From the NCBI RefSeq assembly GCF_000376945.1, contig NZ_AQXU01000025.1, forward strand, positions 248,001 to 312,000: a stretch of DNA of 64,000 bases, written 5' to 3'. Positions 2,873-57,701 of the stretch are shown piece after piece. A program made the translations under genes and the position numbers. The number at the start of each line of letters is the position of its first letter. The first letter of the stretch is position 1. This DNA is from Leeia oryzae DSM 17879 (lineage in GTDB: Bacteria > Pseudomonadota > Gammaproteobacteria > Burkholderiales > Leeiaceae). The notes beneath the pieces are model-generated. The model had not been told where the DNA came from. It worked only from the letters and a program-made list of their open reading frames with translations, and searched no databases.

Positions 2873-4939
2873 TTACTCGGCCAGCAGGGCGATTTCCGCC
2901 ACCTGGTTCATCAGCGCGGCCAGTTCGGACAACAGGGCCAGACGGTTGTTCCGCACCGCCATGTCCTCAGCCATCACCATCACGTCAGCAAAGAAGGCAT
3001 CTACCGGCGCACGCAAACTGGCCAGCTGCTTCAGGCCCGCCGTGTAGTTGCCGGCTTGCAGCTCTGCATTTACCTGTGGTGCAGCTGCACGTGTCGCCTC
3101 AAACAAGGCTTTTTCAGGGGCTTCTGCCAGACGGGCAGCATCCACCGCTGGCAAGATGCCTTCCACCTTCTTCAGAATGTTACGGATACGCTTGTCAGCG
3201 GCCGCCAGTGCAGCGGCCTCTGGCAGGGCACGGAACTCGGCCACTGCCACCAGTTTGGCGCGAATGGTATCCAGCCGGGTCGGGTTCAGCGCCAGTACGG
3301 CATCCACTTCGCGGGCATCAAACTCGCCGGCCAGCAGGTTACGCAAACGGTCCTGCATAAAGCCCAGTACACCAGCCACAACGTCGCCAGACAACTTGCC
3401 CGCTTCAAAGGTGGATGCCGTCATGTTCAGCAACTGCTGCAAGTCGATTGGCAGCTCGGCCTCGACCATCATGCGCAGCACGCCAAGCGCAGCACGGCGC
3501 AAGGCAAACGGGTCTTTGTCACCAGTCGGAATCAAGCCGATACCGTAGATGCCCACCAGCGTTTCCAGCTTGTCTGCCAGCGCTACGCTCAGCGCTACAT
3601 GGCCTTGAGGCAAGGCGTCACCGGCAAAGCGCGGGTGATAATGCCCTTCGATGGCATCGGCCACCTCAGCATGTTCGCCATCAATCTGCGCATAGTAACG
3701 GCCCATGATGCCTTGCAGCTCAGGGAACTCACCCACCATGTCTGATACCAGATCGGCCTTGGCCAGATAAGCAGCACGCGCTGCCAGTGCACGGTCAGCG
3801 CCCAGCAGGGCCGCAATTTCACCGGCCAGGGTTTGCAGGCGGGCAATCCGTTCCAGCTGGGAACCCAGTTTGTTGTGGTAGACCACATCGGCCAGACGGG
3901 CGACACGGTTATCCAGCTTGGTCTTCTGGTCTTGCTCAAAGAAGAACCGCGCATCAGACAAGCGGGCACGCAACACGCGCTCGTTCCCCTGGATGATATG
4001 GCTTGGGTCGTCCGTCTTCAGGTTAGACACCACCAGGAAAGTCGGCAGCAGTTTGCCCGCAGCATCCAGCAGCGGGAAATATTTCTGGTTCTGCTGCATG
4101 GTCAGCATCAGGCACTCTTGCGGCACTTTCAGGAACTCGTCCTCGAAACGGCCCACATACACCACTGGCCACTCCACCAGTGCTGCCACTTCATCAATCA
4201 GGGCTACGTCTGCACCGATGGTGGCATTCAGGCTGGCAGCCGCCTGACTAAGTTCTTTTTCAATCAATGACTTGCGGGCGGCCACGCTGGCGACCACTTT
4301 ACCGTCTTCAAACAGCACACGCGCATAGTCGTCGGCGTGGGCAATGGTCAGTTCACCACTGGACAAGAAACGATGACCACGCGTCACACGGCCGGACGTC
4401 AAGCCCAGCAGTTCAACTGGCAGCACTTCATTACCCAGCAGGACGATCAGGCTTTTCACCGGGCGTACAAACTGCACATCGGTATCACCCCAGCGCATCA
4501 CCTTTGGAATCGGCAGTTTCTTGATGGCGGTAGTCAAAACGTCCGGCAACAGGCTGGCCAAGGCCGCACCCGGTTTGCTGCTACGGAACACAAACACATC
4601 CTGCTTGCCATCAGACATGGTCTGCAAGACCGATACGTCTACCCCGCAAGAGCGGGCAAAGCCCTGCAAGGCTGGCGTTGGCTGGCCGTCTTTCATGCCG
4701 GATGCAACGGCAGGTCCCTTGCGCTCGATTTGCTGCTCGGGCTGGATAGACGATACGGCGGGGATACGCACGGCCAGACGGCGCGGACTGGCAAATGGTT
4801 GCAGTTCGACGTCTGCCCCTACCAGTTGCAGCTTGACCAGCTCATCAAATACCGTTTGTGCAAATACCTGGCCCAAGGTGGCCAGTGCCTTGGGAGGTAG
4901 CTCTTCGGTCAACAGTTCAATCAATAAAGTTTCTTGCAT
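2873..4939 (-). CDS. glyS: Glycyl-tRNA synthetase beta subunit
   Basis: The 688-residue beta chain of the bacterial alpha2beta2 glycyl-tRNA synthetase, which binds tRNA-Gly and contains the anticodon-binding region. It begins with the family N-terminus MQETLLIELLTEELPPKAL and has the expected length of about 690 residues. The C-terminal half contains the HD-like region and the DALR-type helical domain. It lies 71 nt downstream of glyQ, as in most proteobacteria, and 7 nt upstream of gmhB, so the synthetase, LPS precursor and phospholipid genes form one run. Confidence 0.97.
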   Translation of the reverse strand: MQETLLIELLTEELPPKALATLGQVFAQTVFDELVKLQLVGADVELQPFASPRRLAVRIPAVSSIQPEQQIERKGPAVASGMKDGQPTPALQGFARSCGVDVSVLQTMSDGKQDVFVFRSSKPGAALASLLPDVLTTAIKKLPIPKVMRWGDTDVQFVRPVKSLIVLLGNEVLPVELLGLTSGRVTRGHRFLSSGELTIAHADDYARVLFEDGKVVASVAARKSLIEKELSQAAASLNATIGADVALIDEVAALVEWPVVYVGRFEDEFLKVPQECLMLTMQQNQKYFPLLDAAGKLLPTFLVVSNLKTDDPSHIIQGNERVLRARLSDARFFFEQDQKTKLDNRVARLADVVYHNKLGSQLERIARLQTLAGEIAALLGADRALAARAAYLAKADLVSDMVGEFPELQGIMGRYYAQIDGEHAEVADAIEGHYHPRFAGDALPQGHVALSVALADKLETLVGIYGIGLIPTGDKDPFALRRAALGVLRMMVEAELPIDLQQLLNMTASTFEAGKLSGDVVAGVLGFMQDRLRNLLAGEFDAREVDAVLALNPTRLDTIRAKLVAVAEFRALPEAAALAAADKRIRNILKKVEGILPAVDAARLAEAPEKALFEATRAAAPQVNAELQAGNYTAGLKQLASLRAPVDAFFADVMVMAEDMAVRNNRLALLSELAALMNQVAEIALLAE

Positions 4940-51052: not shown

Positions 51053-51367
51053 ATGCAAACGATTACCGCATCCCAACTGTCCGAATGGCTGGGCAAAGAG
51101 CAGAAACCCCAGTTGATCGATGTGCGCGAACCCTGGGAGTACGCGCTATGCGCCATTCCTGGCAGCATCAATATCCCGATGCAGACCATTCCGTCCCGCT
51201 TGAATGACATTGAAGAGGGTGACGTGATTACCATCTGCCATCATGGCATGCGCAGTTATCAGGTCGCTTTGTATCTGGAGGCCGCAGGTCTCGGACCGGT
51301 TCATAACCTGAGCGGTGGCGTGGAAGCCTGGGCAACGGACGTTGACCCGTCCATGGCGCACTACTAA
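51053..51367 (+). CDS. Single-domain rhodanese (sulfurtransferase)
   Basis: A 104-residue rhodanese of the GlpE/PspE type. LIDVREPWEY is the first rhodanese motif and CHHGMRS is the active-site loop with the sulfur-carrying cysteine. It probably moves sulfane sulfur in the cytoplasm. It starts 21 nt after the pcm terminator, and DinB follows after 52 nt in the same direction. The physiological acceptor is unknown. Confidence 0.92.
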   Translation: MQTITASQLSEWLGKEQKPQLIDVREPWEYALCAIPGSINIPMQTIPSRLNDIEEGDVITICHHGMRSYQVALYLEAAGLGPVHNLSGGVEAWATDVDPSMAHY

Positions 51368-51418: not shown

Positions 51419-51961
51419 ATGCCAGACATGACTGAGCACCTGAAACGCTTTTGTGTGTATAACCGGGACATGAACCAGAAGGTATACGCCGCCGCCGCGG
51501 CGTTGCCGCAGTCTGAGCTCATGCAAGATCGCGGGGCATTTTTCGGATCCATCTTCGGGACGCTCAACCATCTGGTGGTGGCAGACCGAATCTGGCTGGG
51601 CCGCTTTGCCGGAGATCCCCGCTTTGCAGCACTGGCAGAGGTCGTGACCGCGATTCCCGCACCCGACAGCCTCACCCGCCAGATGGCGGCTAACCTGCCG
51701 GACTTGCTGGCGCTTCGCCAGCAACTGGATGATGTGCTTGCCCGGTTAGCCGACCTGCTGACCGACGCGCATCTGGATAGCCAATTGGCTTATCGCAACA
51801 TCCAGGGTGTACCGATGCGCAAGCCGGTATTTGCGGTCCTGTCCCACATGTTCAATCACCAAACCCATCACCGGGGCCAGATCAGCACCCTGCTGTTCCA
51901 GGCCGGGCAGGATATCGGCGTGACCGACCTGATTGCCTGGGTGCAGGACATCGAGGCATAA
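51419..51961 (+). CDS. DinB/YfiT-like metal-dependent family protein
   Basis: A 180-residue four-helix-bundle protein of the DinB superfamily. The three metal-binding histidines are probably in LNHLVVADRIW and in HMFNHQTHHRGQ. Members include thiol-dependent transferases and DNA-damage-induced proteins; the reaction of this one is unknown. It is convergent with the MocR gene, with 7 nt between the stop codons. It may be cotranscribed with the rhodanese gene. Confidence 0.88.
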   Translation: MPDMTEHLKRFCVYNRDMNQKVYAAAAALPQSELMQDRGAFFGSIFGTLNHLVVADRIWLGRFAGDPRFAALAEVVTAIPAPDSLTRQMAANLPDLLALRQQLDDVLARLADLLTDAHLDSQLAYRNIQGVPMRKPVFAVLSHMFNHQTHHRGQISTLLFQAGQDIGVTDLIAWVQDIEA

Positions 51962-51968
51962 ACCGCCA

Positions 51969-53498
51969 TCAGACGTTTGCGCGCGTACCTGCCGCGGTCC
52001 ATTCCTCGGCCAGTATCCGCGCGGCGGTTTCAATGTCGGCTTCCTTGACCCCGGCATACCCCAGCATCAAGCCCTGACGGGCATGTGCGCCGCCATAATG
52101 CAGCGACAGTGCCGGTGCAATGATGCGCCGTTGCAGCAGGCGCTGGCTGAGCTGAACGTCATCTATACCCTCCGGCAGCAAGGTCACCAGATGCAGACCC
52201 GCACTGCCGCCACACCACATTGGGGCCTCCCCTAGTGCATCTGCCAGCGAGTGCCGCAGCACCTGTTGTCGTTGCCAGTACAGGCTGCGCATTTTGCGGA
52301 TATGACTGGCAAACTGGCCACTGCCGAGAAACTCGGCCAGTGCGGCTTGCAGCGGGTACTGCCCTTCTCGGTACAGTCTGGCCTGCAAACGGATCAGCGG
52401 CATCGCCAGGCCATCCGGCACCACGATATACGCCAGATGCAAACCGGGATACATCACCTTGCTGAACGTCCCCATGTAAATGGTGCGCCCGGCATCATCC
52501 AGCCCCTGCAACGCCGCTAGCGGCGGGCCGTGGTAACGGAACTCGCTGTCGTAGTCATCTTCCAGAATCCAGCTATCGTGTGCGCGGGCATAGGCCAGCA
52601 AGGCCCGACGTCTGGGCAGGCTCATCACGCATCCCATCGGGTATTGGTGCGAGGGGGTGATATAGATCAGCCGGGGGGCTGGCAACGTGGGGGAGGCCTC
52701 CCAGTTGAGCCCCTCGTCATCCACCGGGATCGGGTGCAGGGTCGATCCGGCGGCCAGCAAAGCCGAGCGGGCGCCGTTATAACCCGGGTCTTCCAACCAG
52801 ACATCGTCACCATGGTCGGTCAGCCCTCTGGCCAGCAAGTCCAGGGATTGCTGCGTACCGGAGGTGATGATGACCTGTTCCGGCCGACATTGCAGCGCAC
52901 GTGTCAGCCGCAGATGCTGGCTTAGCGCCACCTTGAGTTCATGCACGCCCCCCTCTCTAGGGTAAGACAGCCAGGTTCTGTCGGGCAGGCGATGCATCTG
53001 CTGTACCAGGCGCTGCCATTTGAGCAGCGGGAAATCATCGATGGCCGGCACACCGGGCATAAAGGCGCCCGTACCACCACTGATCCGCGGGCTCATGAAC
53101 TGCTGCCCGAGGACATCATGCGCCCTGCGGGACAACACTGGTGCAACAGGGTCTGGCAAGCGCTCGGCCACTTTGCGCTGTGCCTTGCCGGCAGCGCTCC
53201 CGGCGGGCATACGGGTAGTAGCGATATAGGTACCATCACCGGTGCGGGTTTCGACAAACCCCTCGACCTGCAGCTGTTCAAACGCAAACAGCACGGTATT
53301 GCGGGCGATATTCAATGCATCGGCCAATTGTCGGGTGGCGGGCAGTTTGGCCCCTGCCGGCAAATCCCCCAGCAAGATGCGCTGACGCAGCAGCCGGTAC
53401 AAGCGCTTGTTCATGGGCATGCCCGGGTTCTGCTGGAGATCCAGCACCAGCCCCGCCTGCAAGGCCTCGACAGCTACTTTCATCTCACCCATCACCAT
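51969..53498 (-). CDS. MocR/PdxR-type transcriptional regulator
   Basis: A 509-residue GntR-family regulator joined to a fold-type I aminotransferase domain. The winged helix lies at about residues 30-95 (GAKLPATRQLADAL, NTVLFAFEQLQVEGFV) and the aminotransferase-like domain from about 120 on, with the PLP lysine in GTFSKVMYPGLHLAY. MocR proteins sense an amino compound through PLP and bind direct repeats. The open frame extends to 53633, but the first 45 residues overlap the divergent gene; ATG 53498, 53492 and 53483 are all possible and none has a strong ribosome site. Confidence 0.88.
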   Translation of the reverse strand: MVMGEMKVAVEALQAGLVLDLQQNPGMPMNKRLYRLLRQRILLGDLPAGAKLPATRQLADALNIARNTVLFAFEQLQVEGFVETRTGDGTYIATTRMPAGSAAGKAQRKVAERLPDPVAPVLSRRAHDVLGQQFMSPRISGGTGAFMPGVPAIDDFPLLKWQRLVQQMHRLPDRTWLSYPREGGVHELKVALSQHLRLTRALQCRPEQVIITSGTQQSLDLLARGLTDHGDDVWLEDPGYNGARSALLAAGSTLHPIPVDDEGLNWEASPTLPAPRLIYITPSHQYPMGCVMSLPRRRALLAYARAHDSWILEDDYDSEFRYHGPPLAALQGLDDAGRTIYMGTFSKVMYPGLHLAYIVVPDGLAMPLIRLQARLYREGQYPLQAALAEFLGSGQFASHIRKMRSLYWQRQQVLRHSLADALGEAPMWCGGSAGLHLVTLLPEGIDDVQLSQRLLQRRIIAPALSLHYGGAHARQGLMLGYAGVKEADIETAARILAEEWTAAGTRANV

Positions 53499-53530
53499 AT
53501 TGGCACCATCAACAAAATAAAAATTGGCAC
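53499..53530. promoter_or_regulatory. Direct repeat, candidate MocR operator
   Basis: ATTGGCAC occurs at 53499-53506 and again at 53523-53530, a 24-bp spacing (a little over two helical turns), in the short region between the divergent MocR and fused monooxygenase-rhodanese genes. MocR regulators such as GabR and PdxR bind direct repeats in their own divergent promoters. That this one is the operator is an inference. Confidence 0.55.
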
Positions 53531-53586
53531 TACAAACAGAACCATTATGACGATATTGTGTAGAGAATCCAGACAAAAGGCAAATC

Positions 53587-54315
53587 ATGTACGCGGCGAC
53601 ATTCATCTTCCGGAAAAAGCAGTTTGATGACACATTTCATCAGCTCGATGCACAAATCGCCACCATGGCAAAACAGATCGAGGGGTATATCGGTGAGGAA
53701 TCCTGGGAGAACCCGAGCAACGGACACATTGCCAATACCTATTACTGGGAAACCATGGAGGCCTTGCAACTGCTGATTCGCCACCCCCTGCATCAGCAGG
53801 CCAAAGCACAACAGGCTGCCTGGCTGGATGGTTATGAGGTGGTGATTTATCAAGTACTGCAACGCTATGGTGACAATCAGCTGGACCACCCGCTACACAA
53901 CTGGAAAGGACCCAAGATGGATACGACACGCGACGCCCAGATAGCGCATTATGAACACAAACTGGCCTATGAAATGGACTCGGCCGATGTCAAGGTCGCG
54001 TTAGACAAAGGGGAAAAACTGGTGATTGTGGATGCCAGAAGCAGCGATGCCTTTGCTGCCGAGCACATTCCGGGCGCCATCAGCCTGCCCCATCGCCTGA
54101 TGGACGAATCCAGCACCCAAGAACTGGACAAAAACACACTGTACGTCACCTACTGTGACGGCATCGGCTGCAATGCATCGACCAAAGGTGCGCTGAAACT
54201 GGCAAAGCTTGGATTTAATGTCAAAGAGCTGATCGGTGGCATCGACTGGTGGAAACGGGATGGTTATGCCGTCGAAACCGGCGCGGCCTGCCGCATCGGC
54301 TGCGGTTGTAACTAG
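53587..54315 (+). CDS. Fused antibiotic biosynthesis monooxygenase-like and rhodanese protein
   Basis: A 242-residue protein with two parts. Residues 1-105 look like the ferredoxin-like ABM fold (IEGYIGEESWENP, YYWETMEALQLLIRHPLH). Residues 111-242 form a rhodanese domain with VIVDARSSDAFAAEHIPGA and the active loop YCDGIGCNAST. ATG 53587 has AAAGG about 6 nt upstream. At the junction ATG 53917 has AAAGGA 6 nt before it, so the rhodanese can also be made alone. I recall both parts as separate proteins in other bacteria. The gene is divergent from the MocR gene and followed by the AhpD-like gene after 12 nt. The substrate is unknown. Confidence 0.82.
   Translation: MYAATFIFRKKQFDDTFHQLDAQIATMAKQIEGYIGEESWENPSNGHIANTYYWETMEALQLLIRHPLHQQAKAQQAAWLDGYEVVIYQVLQRYGDNQLDHPLHNWKGPKMDTTRDAQIAHYEHKLAYEMDSADVKVALDKGEKLVIVDARSSDAFAAEHIPGAISLPHRLMDESSTQELDKNTLYVTYCDGIGCNASTKGALKLAKLGFNVKELIGGIDWWKRDGYAVETGAACRIGCGCN
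53905..53919 (+). promoter_or_regulatory. Internal ribosome binding site and start for the rhodanese part
   Basis: AAAGGA (53905-53910), a 6-nt spacer and ATG (53917-53919) lie in frame inside the fused gene, exactly at the domain junction. The site would give a 132-residue free rhodanese starting MDTTRDAQIAHYEHKLAYE. It is probably a remnant of two formerly overlapping genes, and may still be used. Confidence 0.6.
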
Positions 54316-54327
54316 GCGGAACACCTC

Positions 54328-54759
54328 ATGAGCAACTTGCGCCTTCCCTATCACGAATTATCGGAAGCGGCCTTGCAAGGCTTGCGGTCGGTCAAGAAAT
54401 ATCTGGAGCAATCCAGCCTTGACCGTCGCCTGCTGGAACTGGTGTATTTGCGTGTCTCGCAGATCAACGGCTGCGCCTTTTGTCTGGACATGCACAGCAA
54501 AGCCCTGCGGGCACACAACGAGTCCCAGCAACGTCTGGATGCGCTGGCGGGCTGGCATGCCAGCAGCTTGTTCAGCGCGCGGGAACGGGCGGCGTTGCAA
54601 TGGGCAGAATCCCTGACGCACGTCAGCCAGACCCATGCGCCAGACGCCGACTACCTGCCATTGACCCAGCATTTTAGCGACCAGGAAATCTCCGACCTGA
54701 CCTTTGCCATTGCCAACATGAATGCGCTCAACCGTCTCGCCATCGGCATGCGGCAATAA
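54328..54759 (+). CDS. Carboxymuconolactone decarboxylase family protein (AhpD-like)
   Basis: A 143-residue helical protein with the AhpD-like redox motif CAFCLDMHSK (Cys-x2-Cys with His four residues later). Such proteins act as alkylhydroperoxidases that accept electrons from lipoyl or thioredoxin-like partners, though many have no tested substrate. It lies 12 nt after the fused monooxygenase-rhodanese gene and 30 nt before a GNAT gene, so the three appear to be one unit controlled from the MocR divergent promoter. The grouping suggests a thiol or small-molecule detoxification role, which is an inference. Confidence 0.9.
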   Translation: MSNLRLPYHELSEAALQGLRSVKKYLEQSSLDRRLLELVYLRVSQINGCAFCLDMHSKALRAHNESQQRLDALAGWHASSLFSARERAALQWAESLTHVSQTHAPDADYLPLTQHFSDQEISDLTFAIANMNALNRLAIGMRQ

Positions 54760-54789: not shown

Positions 54790-55239
54790 ATGACAATTCA
54801 TATCCGCCTCGCCACCCTGCAGGATATCCCGGCACTGGCGCCGCTTTTTGATGCCTACCGGCAATTTTACGAGCAGCCTTCGGATATCGGTTTGGCGACA
54901 GATTATCTGCGCACCAGACTTACCAACCAGGAGTCCGTGATTCTGGTGGCCAGCAACGCCGAACAGCAACTGACCGGGTTTTGCCAGCTTTATCCCAGCT
55001 TCTGTTCTGTCATCGCCGCCCCGATTTATGTCTTGTATGACTTGTTTGTCAGCCCGGGCGCCCGGCAAACCGGCACAGGAAAACGGTTGATGCAGGCAGC
55101 CGAAGCGGAAGGCATCCGGGCGGGTAAACGCCGGCTGGACTTGACCACGGCCAAAACCAACCTGACGGCACAGGCACTTTATGAAGGATGTGGCTGGGAA
55201 CGGGATAAAGTCTTTCTCACCTACAACAAGAACCTGTAA
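54790..55239 (+). CDS. GNAT family N-acetyltransferase
   Basis: A 149-residue GNAT protein. YVLYDLFVSPGARQTGTGKRLM is the usual beta4-alpha3 region, with Q-T-G-T-G as the acetyl-CoA pyrophosphate loop, and ALYEGCGWERDKVFLTYNK is the C-terminal strand region. The substrate is unknown. It is the last gene of the plus-strand unit that starts at 53587 and converges on the CHASE-GGDEF gene after 26 nt. AGGA lies upstream of the start. Confidence 0.88.
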   Translation: MTIHIRLATLQDIPALAPLFDAYRQFYEQPSDIGLATDYLRTRLTNQESVILVASNAEQQLTGFCQLYPSFCSVIAAPIYVLYDLFVSPGARQTGTGKRLMQAAEAEGIRAGKRRLDLTTAKTNLTAQALYEGCGWERDKVFLTYNKNL

Positions 55240-55265: not shown

Positions 55266-57701
55266 TCACGACTCATTGTGCGCCGGCTGGTCCTCCTGCC
55301 GGATATCACCGGCAAAGCAGATGTGCGGGCTTGGCAACTGTTTGGCAATATACATGGCTGAATCAGCCTGCTGGATCACCTCACTGATGGTGGCGCCATC
55401 GTCCGGATAAATCGAAATTCCCAGACTGCCAGAGACGGACAGGGTGACGCCGTTAAAACTACAGGGGGTCTCTACAGCATGCAGCAAGCGCTCGGCCAGA
55501 TCCCGCAAGCTGCCATGCGGCTGCAGTTCGGATAACAGGATCACGAACTCGTCCCCACCCTGCCGGCATACCGTATCAGCCGCCCGGACAATGGTTTGCA
55601 ACTGCCCGGCAACGGCTTGCAAGACGGCGTCCCCCGCTTCATGACCATACTGGTCATTGATCGGCTTGAATTTGTCCAGATCCAGAAACAGAATGGCAAA
55701 CCGCCGATTGTAGCGTTTGGCCTGTTCCAGCAATTGCTCCGCCCGCTCGATCAGCGCCGCCCGGTTTGGCAAACCGGTCAGATAGTCATGCAGGGCCAGA
55801 AAACGGATTCTCTCTTCTGCCTGATGTCGCTCGGTCACATCCTGGAACATGCCCAGATAATTCACCACCTCCCCCTGATCGTTCAGAATCTGGGTAATCT
55901 GCAAGCGTTCGGTATACACACTGCCGTCCTTGCGGCGGTTCACCAGCTCGCCTTCCCATGACCCCTTGCTGGCAAGCTGTTGCCACATGTCCTGATAAAA
56001 CGCATCGCCCTGCCCCGGCCCTTTCAGGAAGCGGGGATTGCGACCCAGCGCCTCCTCCTCGGAATACCCGGTCAACCGGGTAAAACCGGGATTCACCGCA
56101 ATCAGATTATTGTGGCTGTCTGTCACCATGATACCGTTGGGACTGGCTTTGAACACGTTATCCGACAGGCGCATGGTCTCGGCGATGGCCCGCTGCTCGG
56201 TGATGTCTTCCAGCGCAAAGACCACCCCGCTGACATTGCCTTCCATGCTCCACATGGGGCGACCAGTGAGTTTGCCCCAGAACAGGCGGCCATCCCGGCG
56301 CACGCATTGCAGTTCCAGCGAGAAATTGGTTTTGTCTTTCTGATACAGCAGTTTCAAATGAGACAACACCTTGCCCTGATCTTCAGGTTTGATCATCTCG
56401 ATAAAGGCAGCCCCCTTGGGTTCATCGCCGGCGGGTATCAGCATAATGTCCGAGAGCCGCTTGTTGGCATGCTGGATCACCCCTTGCGGGTCCACCAGAA
56501 AAATGGCCACACTGGAACTGTCATAAATCGCCAGCAGCAAGCTGCCCTGCTCGGCCAAAGCCCGGTTACCCTGCGCCACTCTGGCAAGGGAGGCAGCGGC
56601 AAACTGGTGCCGGGAGGCCGACATCCAGGCCAGGGTCGCCAGCAAAAAGGACAAGATGATGCCGGAAACGCCAAAAACATAGCTGTCCCGGTTAATCGAT
56701 ACCCCCAGCCAGTCGGACAATCTTGACTGAAACACATAGGTCCAGCGCCCCTCAAACAGATCCGAATGGACAACAAAGGTAACCTTGTCACCTTCGGTTT
56801 CCGGCTCGCCCAGCACGTCCGAAAACATCAGGGCATCCGGTTTGACCGTATCACCGTCATAAACCTGCAAATGCATTTTCAAGGCATGCTCTTCCGCCTC
56901 TGTATGCCAGAAACCTTGCAACAACACCTGAATGTTCAGTGCAGCAAATGTCCATCCCTGCAATGCTTTTTGCCGTAATGCCGGCGTGGCAGGCTGGTTG
57001 CCTGAGGTGTATACCGGCAATATCAGAATGGTTTTACGGGCATCCTTCTGGCCGAACATATCCTCGCCGACCAGTCGTCCCGACAAAACGGGCTCGGCAC
57101 TATCCCTGGATTGCAAGGCCGCCCAGCGGCGTGCCGGGTCCATCAGAAAGTCTTCGCCCAGGCGGGTCGTAGAAAAGTGGGCAAACGAGGTGAGATACAC
57201 CACCGGGGCATATTCCCGGCGGACACCGCGCGGCGTAATTTCAAACCAGGGGGCCCCATCGGCATGAATGGCGTCCAGCATGGACGGCACCTGGTCGTGC
57301 GGCATCATTTGCACATAACCGATGCTTTCGATGCCAGGGTAATGGCTGGACAGCTCAAGACGGCTCACGTAGGACTGGAATTCATCACGGGAAACCTGAT
57401 TGCTCCCGTTGAACAAACCGCGTACCCCGCGCAATATCTGTGCATTGGCATACAAAGACTGCCTGACCCCCGTGACCAGATCCATTGCATGGTCCCGGAA
57501 GGCCTGATTGGCTGCAGCCTGTGCCTGCCCTCTGGCATACATGACCAGCGTAGCGGTCAACAGCATGCCAACCACCAGGATCAGGGCGGGGATGATAAGC
57601 ATGCGATAACCGGAGGGTAAAGCGTTACGCAAATGAGAGCGCATCTGGCATACCAGTCTGGATTTGTAATTGATGCCCGGACAAGCCGGTGAATCAGGCA
57701 T
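55266..57701 (-). CDS. CHASE-PAS-PAS-GGDEF diguanylate cyclase
   Basis: An 811-residue membrane sensor. A transmembrane helix at about 33-54 is followed by a periplasmic CHASE domain (about 80-300; YPGIESIGYVQMMP), a second helix near 343-362, PAS domains at about 390-505 and 515-640, and a C-terminal GGDEF domain with QGGDEF intact. It should make cyclic di-GMP in answer to an extracellular small molecule. There is no EAL domain. ATG 57701 is the first start; ATG 57644 is a shorter choice, and neither has a clear ribosome site. Confidence 0.92.
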   Translation of the reverse strand: MPDSPACPGINYKSRLVCQMRSHLRNALPSGYRMLIIPALILVVGMLLTATLVMYARGQAQAAANQAFRDHAMDLVTGVRQSLYANAQILRGVRGLFNGSNQVSRDEFQSYVSRLELSSHYPGIESIGYVQMMPHDQVPSMLDAIHADGAPWFEITPRGVRREYAPVVYLTSFAHFSTTRLGEDFLMDPARRWAALQSRDSAEPVLSGRLVGEDMFGQKDARKTILILPVYTSGNQPATPALRQKALQGWTFAALNIQVLLQGFWHTEAEEHALKMHLQVYDGDTVKPDALMFSDVLGEPETEGDKVTFVVHSDLFEGRWTYVFQSRLSDWLGVSINRDSYVFGVSGIILSFLLATLAWMSASRHQFAAASLARVAQGNRALAEQGSLLLAIYDSSSVAIFLVDPQGVIQHANKRLSDIMLIPAGDEPKGAAFIEMIKPEDQGKVLSHLKLLYQKDKTNFSLELQCVRRDGRLFWGKLTGRPMWSMEGNVSGVVFALEDITEQRAIAETMRLSDNVFKASPNGIMVTDSHNNLIAVNPGFTRLTGYSEEEALGRNPRFLKGPGQGDAFYQDMWQQLASKGSWEGELVNRRKDGSVYTERLQITQILNDQGEVVNYLGMFQDVTERHQAEERIRFLALHDYLTGLPNRAALIERAEQLLEQAKRYNRRFAILFLDLDKFKPINDQYGHEAGDAVLQAVAGQLQTIVRAADTVCRQGGDEFVILLSELQPHGSLRDLAERLLHAVETPCSFNGVTLSVSGSLGISIYPDDGATISEVIQQADSAMYIAKQLPSPHICFAGDIRQEDQPAHNES

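Follow-up and report, generated by a model that had tools for sequence, protein, structure and literature searches.

A probable ABM-like/rhodanese gene fusion in Leeia oryzae DSM 17879 with a start-like internal site

Introduction

The TrhO/YceA proteins (UPF0176) are tRNA uridine hydroxylases. We know of no activity for the YqjZ-like ABM proteins. YqjZ is described as a non-heme protein of the ABM family with type-2 barrel packing (PMC4835899). The loop of TrhO is given as CTGGIR (PMC6599085). The Rpn genes are presented as genes within genes, in which translation also starts internally and a short product is reported to be made (PMC10327210).

In this study, a gene of Leeia oryzae DSM 17879 that joins an ABM-like and a rhodanese part was compared with these systems. 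It lies in a stretch of 64,000 nucleotides, which as a whole is called the window here. The gene offers a natural experiment in which two operon genes would have become one, and it raises the question of whether an old translation start outlives a fusion. A sister species (G002) keeps a comparison locus without the fusion. By title and abstract, no ABM-rhodanese fusion protein and nothing relevant to MocR together with rhodanese were found in searches of an open-licence library.

Results

Fused Gene and Its Two Halves

An initial annotation had placed both parts in one frame without an intervening stop and had noted, at their junction, the string AAAGGA and, 6 nt further on, an in-frame ATG. 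The ORF translation and the coordinates confirmed both points (Table 1): from ATG 53587 to TAG 54313–54315, no stop codon lies between the two halves. The gene is present in a single copy in its own genome, which otherwise contains only two distant rhodanese matches (E ≤ 0.001).

Table 1. Features of the fused gene and its operon (positions in the window).
Feature	Position	Strand	Remarks
MocR/PdxR-type regulator	51969..53633	-	longest ORF; overlaps the start of the fused gene and is divergent from it
AAAAGG ahead of the first start 53587	53575..53580	+	string also upstream of abm in the sister species G002
Fused ABM-like/rhodanese gene	53587..54315	+	single open frame, 242 aa, 27.3 kDa
ABM-like half, residues 1–110, YqjZ type	53587..53916	+	family models, free homologues, YqjZ match
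Internal Shine-Dalgarno-like AAAGGA	53905..53910	+	6 nt (53911–53916) before ATG 53917
Internal in-frame ATG, Met111	53917..53919	+	start region of free rhodaneses, end of free ABM
Rhodanese half, residues 111–242	53917..54315	+	132 aa, 14.3 kDa if started at 53917
AhpD/carboxymuconolactone-decarboxylase-like gene	54328..54759	+	12 nt after the fused gene
GNAT acetyltransferase gene	54790..55239	+	operon member

The nearest solved structure to the first half by sequence was YqjZ (PDB 2go8, E 2.6e-6, residues 2–104). Searched alone against Pfam, this half reached PF13826 with E 0.0013 and PF03992 with E 0.04, both below Pfam's cut-off (for PF03992, the ABM family, 14.5 bits vs 23.1). The ABM relation of residues 1–110 is therefore taken from the YqjZ match and the fold, and "monooxygenase" is used as a family-level name that implies no activity. 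Eighteen free ABM genes were recovered, with lengths of 105–116 aa and 42–68% identity to the fused protein over the tblastn match. In an alignment, 22 invariant columns were common to the fused protein and 17 of these 18. Alignment A4 misplaces the last ABM residues; the mixed alignment A1, in which the C-terminal third of the ABM part is misplaced, was unused. The ABM tree resolves nothing, with 0 of its 16 inner branches starred. Family models thus support the ABM label weakly, whereas the sequences of relatives make it firm.

The second half matched the rhodanese family PF00581 with E 5e-17 and 61.2 bits, against a cut-off of 22.2. Its active-site loop, YCDGIGC, carries Cys190 and Cys195, and its tail contains Cys. 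By sequence, it also matched BH2092 (PDB 3nhv, E 4.4e-30). By sequence, residues 111–242 clearly read as a complete single-domain rhodanese.

The AlphaFold model of the fused protein (29 rows) had a mean pLDDT of 85.2 and showed two confident domains, and linker residues 95–107 were below 50. The pTM was 0.56, so the arrangement of the domains in the model is not fixed. When this model was searched with Foldseek, the BH2092 rhodanese ranked first; ABM-type chains, which presumably match the non-rhodanese part, appeared from rank 31.

A sequencing or assembly error might conceal a stop or a frameshift, so that the genes are really separate and abut or overlap. The gene is known from a single assembly, with one genome per species, and after a one-base slip at the junction, abm would end at 53942 or 53952 and so overlap the rhodanese gene slightly, as genes in operons often do. 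However, with an end no earlier than 53942, the ABM protein would exceed the length of all 18 free ABM found (maximum 116 aa). The frame also passes without a break from the end of the ABM part to where the rhodanese starts, and the assembly, in 25 contigs, has a completeness of 99.97%. An error of this kind is improbable.

Free Homologues and Search for Other Fusions

Among the 399 genomes of the order, 64 (the window's genome, G000, included) gave a match at E ≤ 1e-15 to one half or to both, and residues 1–242 were matched without a stop in G000 only. A second fusion was not found in the class (11 of 369 genomes matching, G000 counted) or in the phylum (39 of 359, G000 counted), and the fused form was not found in the family of G176 (37 of 43 matching) or the family of G111 (9 of 10); these five genome sets overlap. 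Matches occurred in 85 of 72,556 plasmid records, none over 80% of the query. Viral contigs gave two loci, both rhodanese only. Genome contigs contained at least 585 relatives; 80 were retained, all matching the rhodanese half. The initial annotation had held that fused homologues as the rule, with the internal site not conserved, would speak against its reading; fused homologues were not the rule in the sets searched, where the fused form was confined to G000. Judged by sequence, the ABM-rhodanese combination was met nowhere else in these sets, and the event is of a type already known.

Several candidates were rejected as further fusions. At L071 (tblastn residues 36–242), a stop precedes the rhodanese start. 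L062 offers no MocR-rhodanese fusion: its MocR match does not share a frame with the rhodanese, and its long frame looks accidental. Matches in G218, G237, G314, and G387 extend past one half only across stop codons. At L079 (about 3740–4423, Pantoea sp. Cy-639) and L130 (about 3782–4471, Streptomyces sp. CC208A), the N-terminal domain is another one. The same rhodanese family stands there behind a seemingly acyl-carrier-protein domain; the PP-binding match is below the cut-off in L079, and L130 has no such Pfam match. On the Xenorhabdus plasmid pXT29 (L195), a free rhodanese lies among genes for an adenylation-domain protein, pvdA, and ectB, in what looks like a nonribosomal-peptide cluster.

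Separate full-length genes for each half are present in relatives, the free rhodaneses in several phyla among the matches listed. A search for separate homologues next to each other had been proposed as a check. The separate halves were found (18 free ABM and 117 free rhodaneses), but not as neighbours: by eye, no adjacent unfused abm-rhodanese pair occurred among the matches listed (399, 369, 359, 43, and 10 overlapping genomes; E ≤ 1e-15). Among them, the smallest distance between an unfused abm and an unfused rhodanese gene was about 13 kb (genus g134). The free rhodaneses were 122–138 aa long in 106 of the 117 cases. In a tree of 77 rows, from which 2 of every 3 loci between L072 and L139 were dropped and which had few columns and a long-branch warning, the rhodanese half fell into a different subfamily from the rhodanese of G002 (splits 94/83 and 94/93, narrowly short of a star from the tool).

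Locus in Related Species and Fusion Point

G002 is collinear with the window on both flanks over about 17 kb (about 46.7–63.8 kb), and neighbouring genes are up to 93% identical. The gene order is MocR, abm, GNAT in G002 and MocR, abm-rhodanese, ahpD-like, GNAT in the window. The free abm of G002 encodes 111 residues and is 62% identical to that of the window. The acetyltransferase ORF of G002 begins directly after it, with no room for a rhodanese remnant, and the rhodanese of this species is at another locus (L153), beside another MocR gene and a GNAT gene. In a third species (G001), the regulator is at the same place with 54% identity, and no abm, rhodanese, or AhpD-like match was found at this locus. 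The simplest reading of these sequences is that the rhodanese and AhpD-like genes arrived beside abm in the lineage of the window. In the alternative direction, the rhodanese may have been lost in G002.

Apart from the genes discussed above, the window ORFs 51419–51961 and 55266–57701 have no match in the collinear G002 block; the latter, on the minus strand, is a GGDEF-type gene by motifs. By sequence, a small rhodanese-like gene lies 2.2 kb upstream (51053–51367); it is 87.5% identical and collinear in G002 and 69% identical in G001. By inspection, the true start of the MocR/PdxR-type regulator is probably lower than that of its longest ORF, near 53500. Between the regulator and the fused gene, ATTGGCAC forms a direct repeat at 53499–53506 and 53523–53530, 24 bp apart. 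Its second copy and a downstream CCATTATGnCGnTAT are kept in G002, and the repeat region is a possible MocR operator.

With its 111 residues, the free ABM of G002 ends within one codon of the internal Met111. The last ABM residue fell at query position 108–114 in 10 other ABM loci, at 108–111 in 8 of them, and at 111 in G002. On the rhodanese side, 61 free genes have a single in-frame ATG in the interval from the upstream stop to a HYxxKL-type motif, and in 57 of them this ATG is 5–7 residues before the motif. Met111 is 10 residues before it, a distance shared by the nearest ATG of 2 among the 95 motif-bearing genes; the motif as written is absent from 22 of the 117 free rhodaneses. The usual start of a free rhodanese thus lies 3–5 codons after the position of Met111. 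Since free ABM proteins end and free rhodaneses start near the junction, both proteins are complete, and the old rhodanese leader would now serve as the linker.

A genuine gene fusion, originating from separate genes, is likely. The initial annotation had proposed formerly adjacent or overlapping genes fused by loss of a stop codon. The separate genes were borne out by the free halves and by the abm still in place in G002, but adjacency and stop loss were not. Because no adjacent unfused pair was seen, the loss of a stop between former neighbours may have been the last step but was not observed; synteny with G002 suggests instead that the rhodanese and AhpD-like genes entered next to abm.

It could also be supposed that the fused gene is old and was split in relatives by fission. 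In its favour, abm or rhodanese is found at MocR-linked loci within the order, at some of them with a related acetyltransferase gene. Against this, free rhodaneses are spread over several phyla and the fused form was found once in the sets searched, and the abutting abm and acetyltransferase genes of G002 leave no space for a remnant. Fission is very unlikely.

For the fusion of separate genes, the following course is proposed. In a MocR-linked operon, the rhodanese gene and the ahpD-like gene would have been inserted after abm and ahead of the acetyltransferase gene. Stop replacement or a small deletion would have put the rhodanese leader in one continuous frame with the end of abm. The old ribosome-binding site of the rhodanese, AAAGGA, would now be read as Lys-Gly in the linker.

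Internal Start Site

Internal in-frame ATGs were surveyed in 194 mechanically chosen ORFs of at least 150 aa in 264 kb (the window and ten 20-kb stretches of the same genome). At usable spacing, 6 or more bases identical to AAAGGAGGT preceded 3 of 1479 such ATGs, and 53917 was one of the three. The other two are at codons 59–60 of long ORFs, whose true starts may simply lie there. Among the gene starts, 11 of 194 reached a 6-base match, the best candidate in the first 30 codons being taken. Within the fused ORF, the internal start codon GTG 54022 had a 5-base match, and the remaining eight had none of at least 4.

With what we take to be the anti-Shine-Dalgarno end, the computed pairing was -5.6 kcal/mol for the internal site vs -3.4 kcal/mol for the first start. 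For the downstream genes of the operon, it was -5.7 kcal/mol (AhpD-like) and -4.3 kcal/mol (GNAT). In a 121-nt fold, the AAAGGA bases were unpaired with a probability of 0.74–1.0, and ATG 53917 was less open (0.84, 0.27, and 0.23). As in a gene within a gene, an in-frame Shine-Dalgarno sequence and start codon beyond chance are present at 53917. The internal site is start-like and exceeds chance.

Free rhodaneses were compared at starts assigned by a script favouring the expected place. A Shine-Dalgarno match of at least 5 was present at only 40 of the 117 starts, and 63 of the 117, many from Bacteroidota, had none of at least 4. A strong Shine-Dalgarno sequence is therefore not a trait of the family.

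Discussion

Predicted Products

Ribosomes that start at 53587 would make the 27.3-kDa protein, modelled as two domains with a flexible linker. Ribosomes may also start at 53917, and a free 14.3-kDa rhodanese made beside the fusion is a plausible prediction, though one with somewhat less than an even chance. The fusion may equally be real with the long protein alone made from it and AAAGGA left as a useless remnant of the rhodanese leader, which we consider a serious prospect at slightly under even odds. The site is known from one genome, its start codon is partly paired, and AAAGGA encodes Lys-Gly in 15 of the 173 such dipeptides of the 194 ORFs regardless; elongating ribosomes may also mask ATG 53917. 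Against a useless remnant, such a strong match is rare at internal ATGs (3 in 1479, 53917 included), AAAGGA and ATG lie in the native start region of a rhodanese, and the Shine-Dalgarno pairing is stronger than that of the first start.

MocR Context and Possible Function

In a set of loci with about 1.5-kb flanks, chosen by best match, many closely related and not random, a divergent MocR relative was in the flank of 20 of 43 rhodanese, 2 of 14 abm, and 2 of 12 AhpD-like loci. On an Ideonella plasmid, abm stands together with a MocR relative and the gene for an FMN-binding regulator. Next to MocR regulators, the parts of the operon thus reappear singly in most cases. The occurrence of both YqjZ-like ABM and BH2092-like rhodanese genes there is a hint of a functional link between these uncharacterised families. 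At a MocR-rhodanese locus of another family (L160, 5129–6316), the downstream gene encodes a pair of acetyltransferase domains, of which the second is a relative of the GNAT of the window; this is a further fusion in an operon of this type.

As a guess, the operon could respond to a reactive small molecule under the control of MocR: the rhodanese would move sulfane sulfur, and the ABM-like domain would bind or oxidise a substrate. If so, the fusion would keep both domains in equal amounts, and the internal start would add extra rhodanese. The whole reading is offered tentatively: one ORF may give a bifunctional ABM-rhodanese and, through a kept start, a free rhodanese, and the fusion would mark both enzymes as partners in an undescribed MocR-linked reaction.

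Comparison with Known Systems

The YqjZ-like ABM proteins resemble the fused protein in sequence over residues 2–104, but they are free-standing, whereas the ABM part here bears a C-terminal rhodanese. The BH2092-type rhodanese (PDB 3nhv, 3o3w) shares 44% identity with the fused protein and fits its model with an rmsd of 1.2 Å over 117 columns. It is also free-standing, and its loop is CWGPAC, whereas that of the fused protein is CDGIGC.

TrhO/YceA (PDB 4f67) was a whole-length fold match at rank 36, with 259 alignment columns and the same order of an N-terminal domain and then a rhodanese domain; its rmsd to the model was 14.7 Å. Membership in this family was rejected. The fused protein lacks the TrhO loop, and it has no match at E ≤ 1 to the family's models, UPF0176 N-terminal and Rhodanese_C.

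The Rpn-type genes within genes are the model for the fused gene's single ORF, in which the C-terminal part alone has a candidate start of its own in the same frame. The short product has been reported for Rpn, whereas for the fused gene it is predicted.
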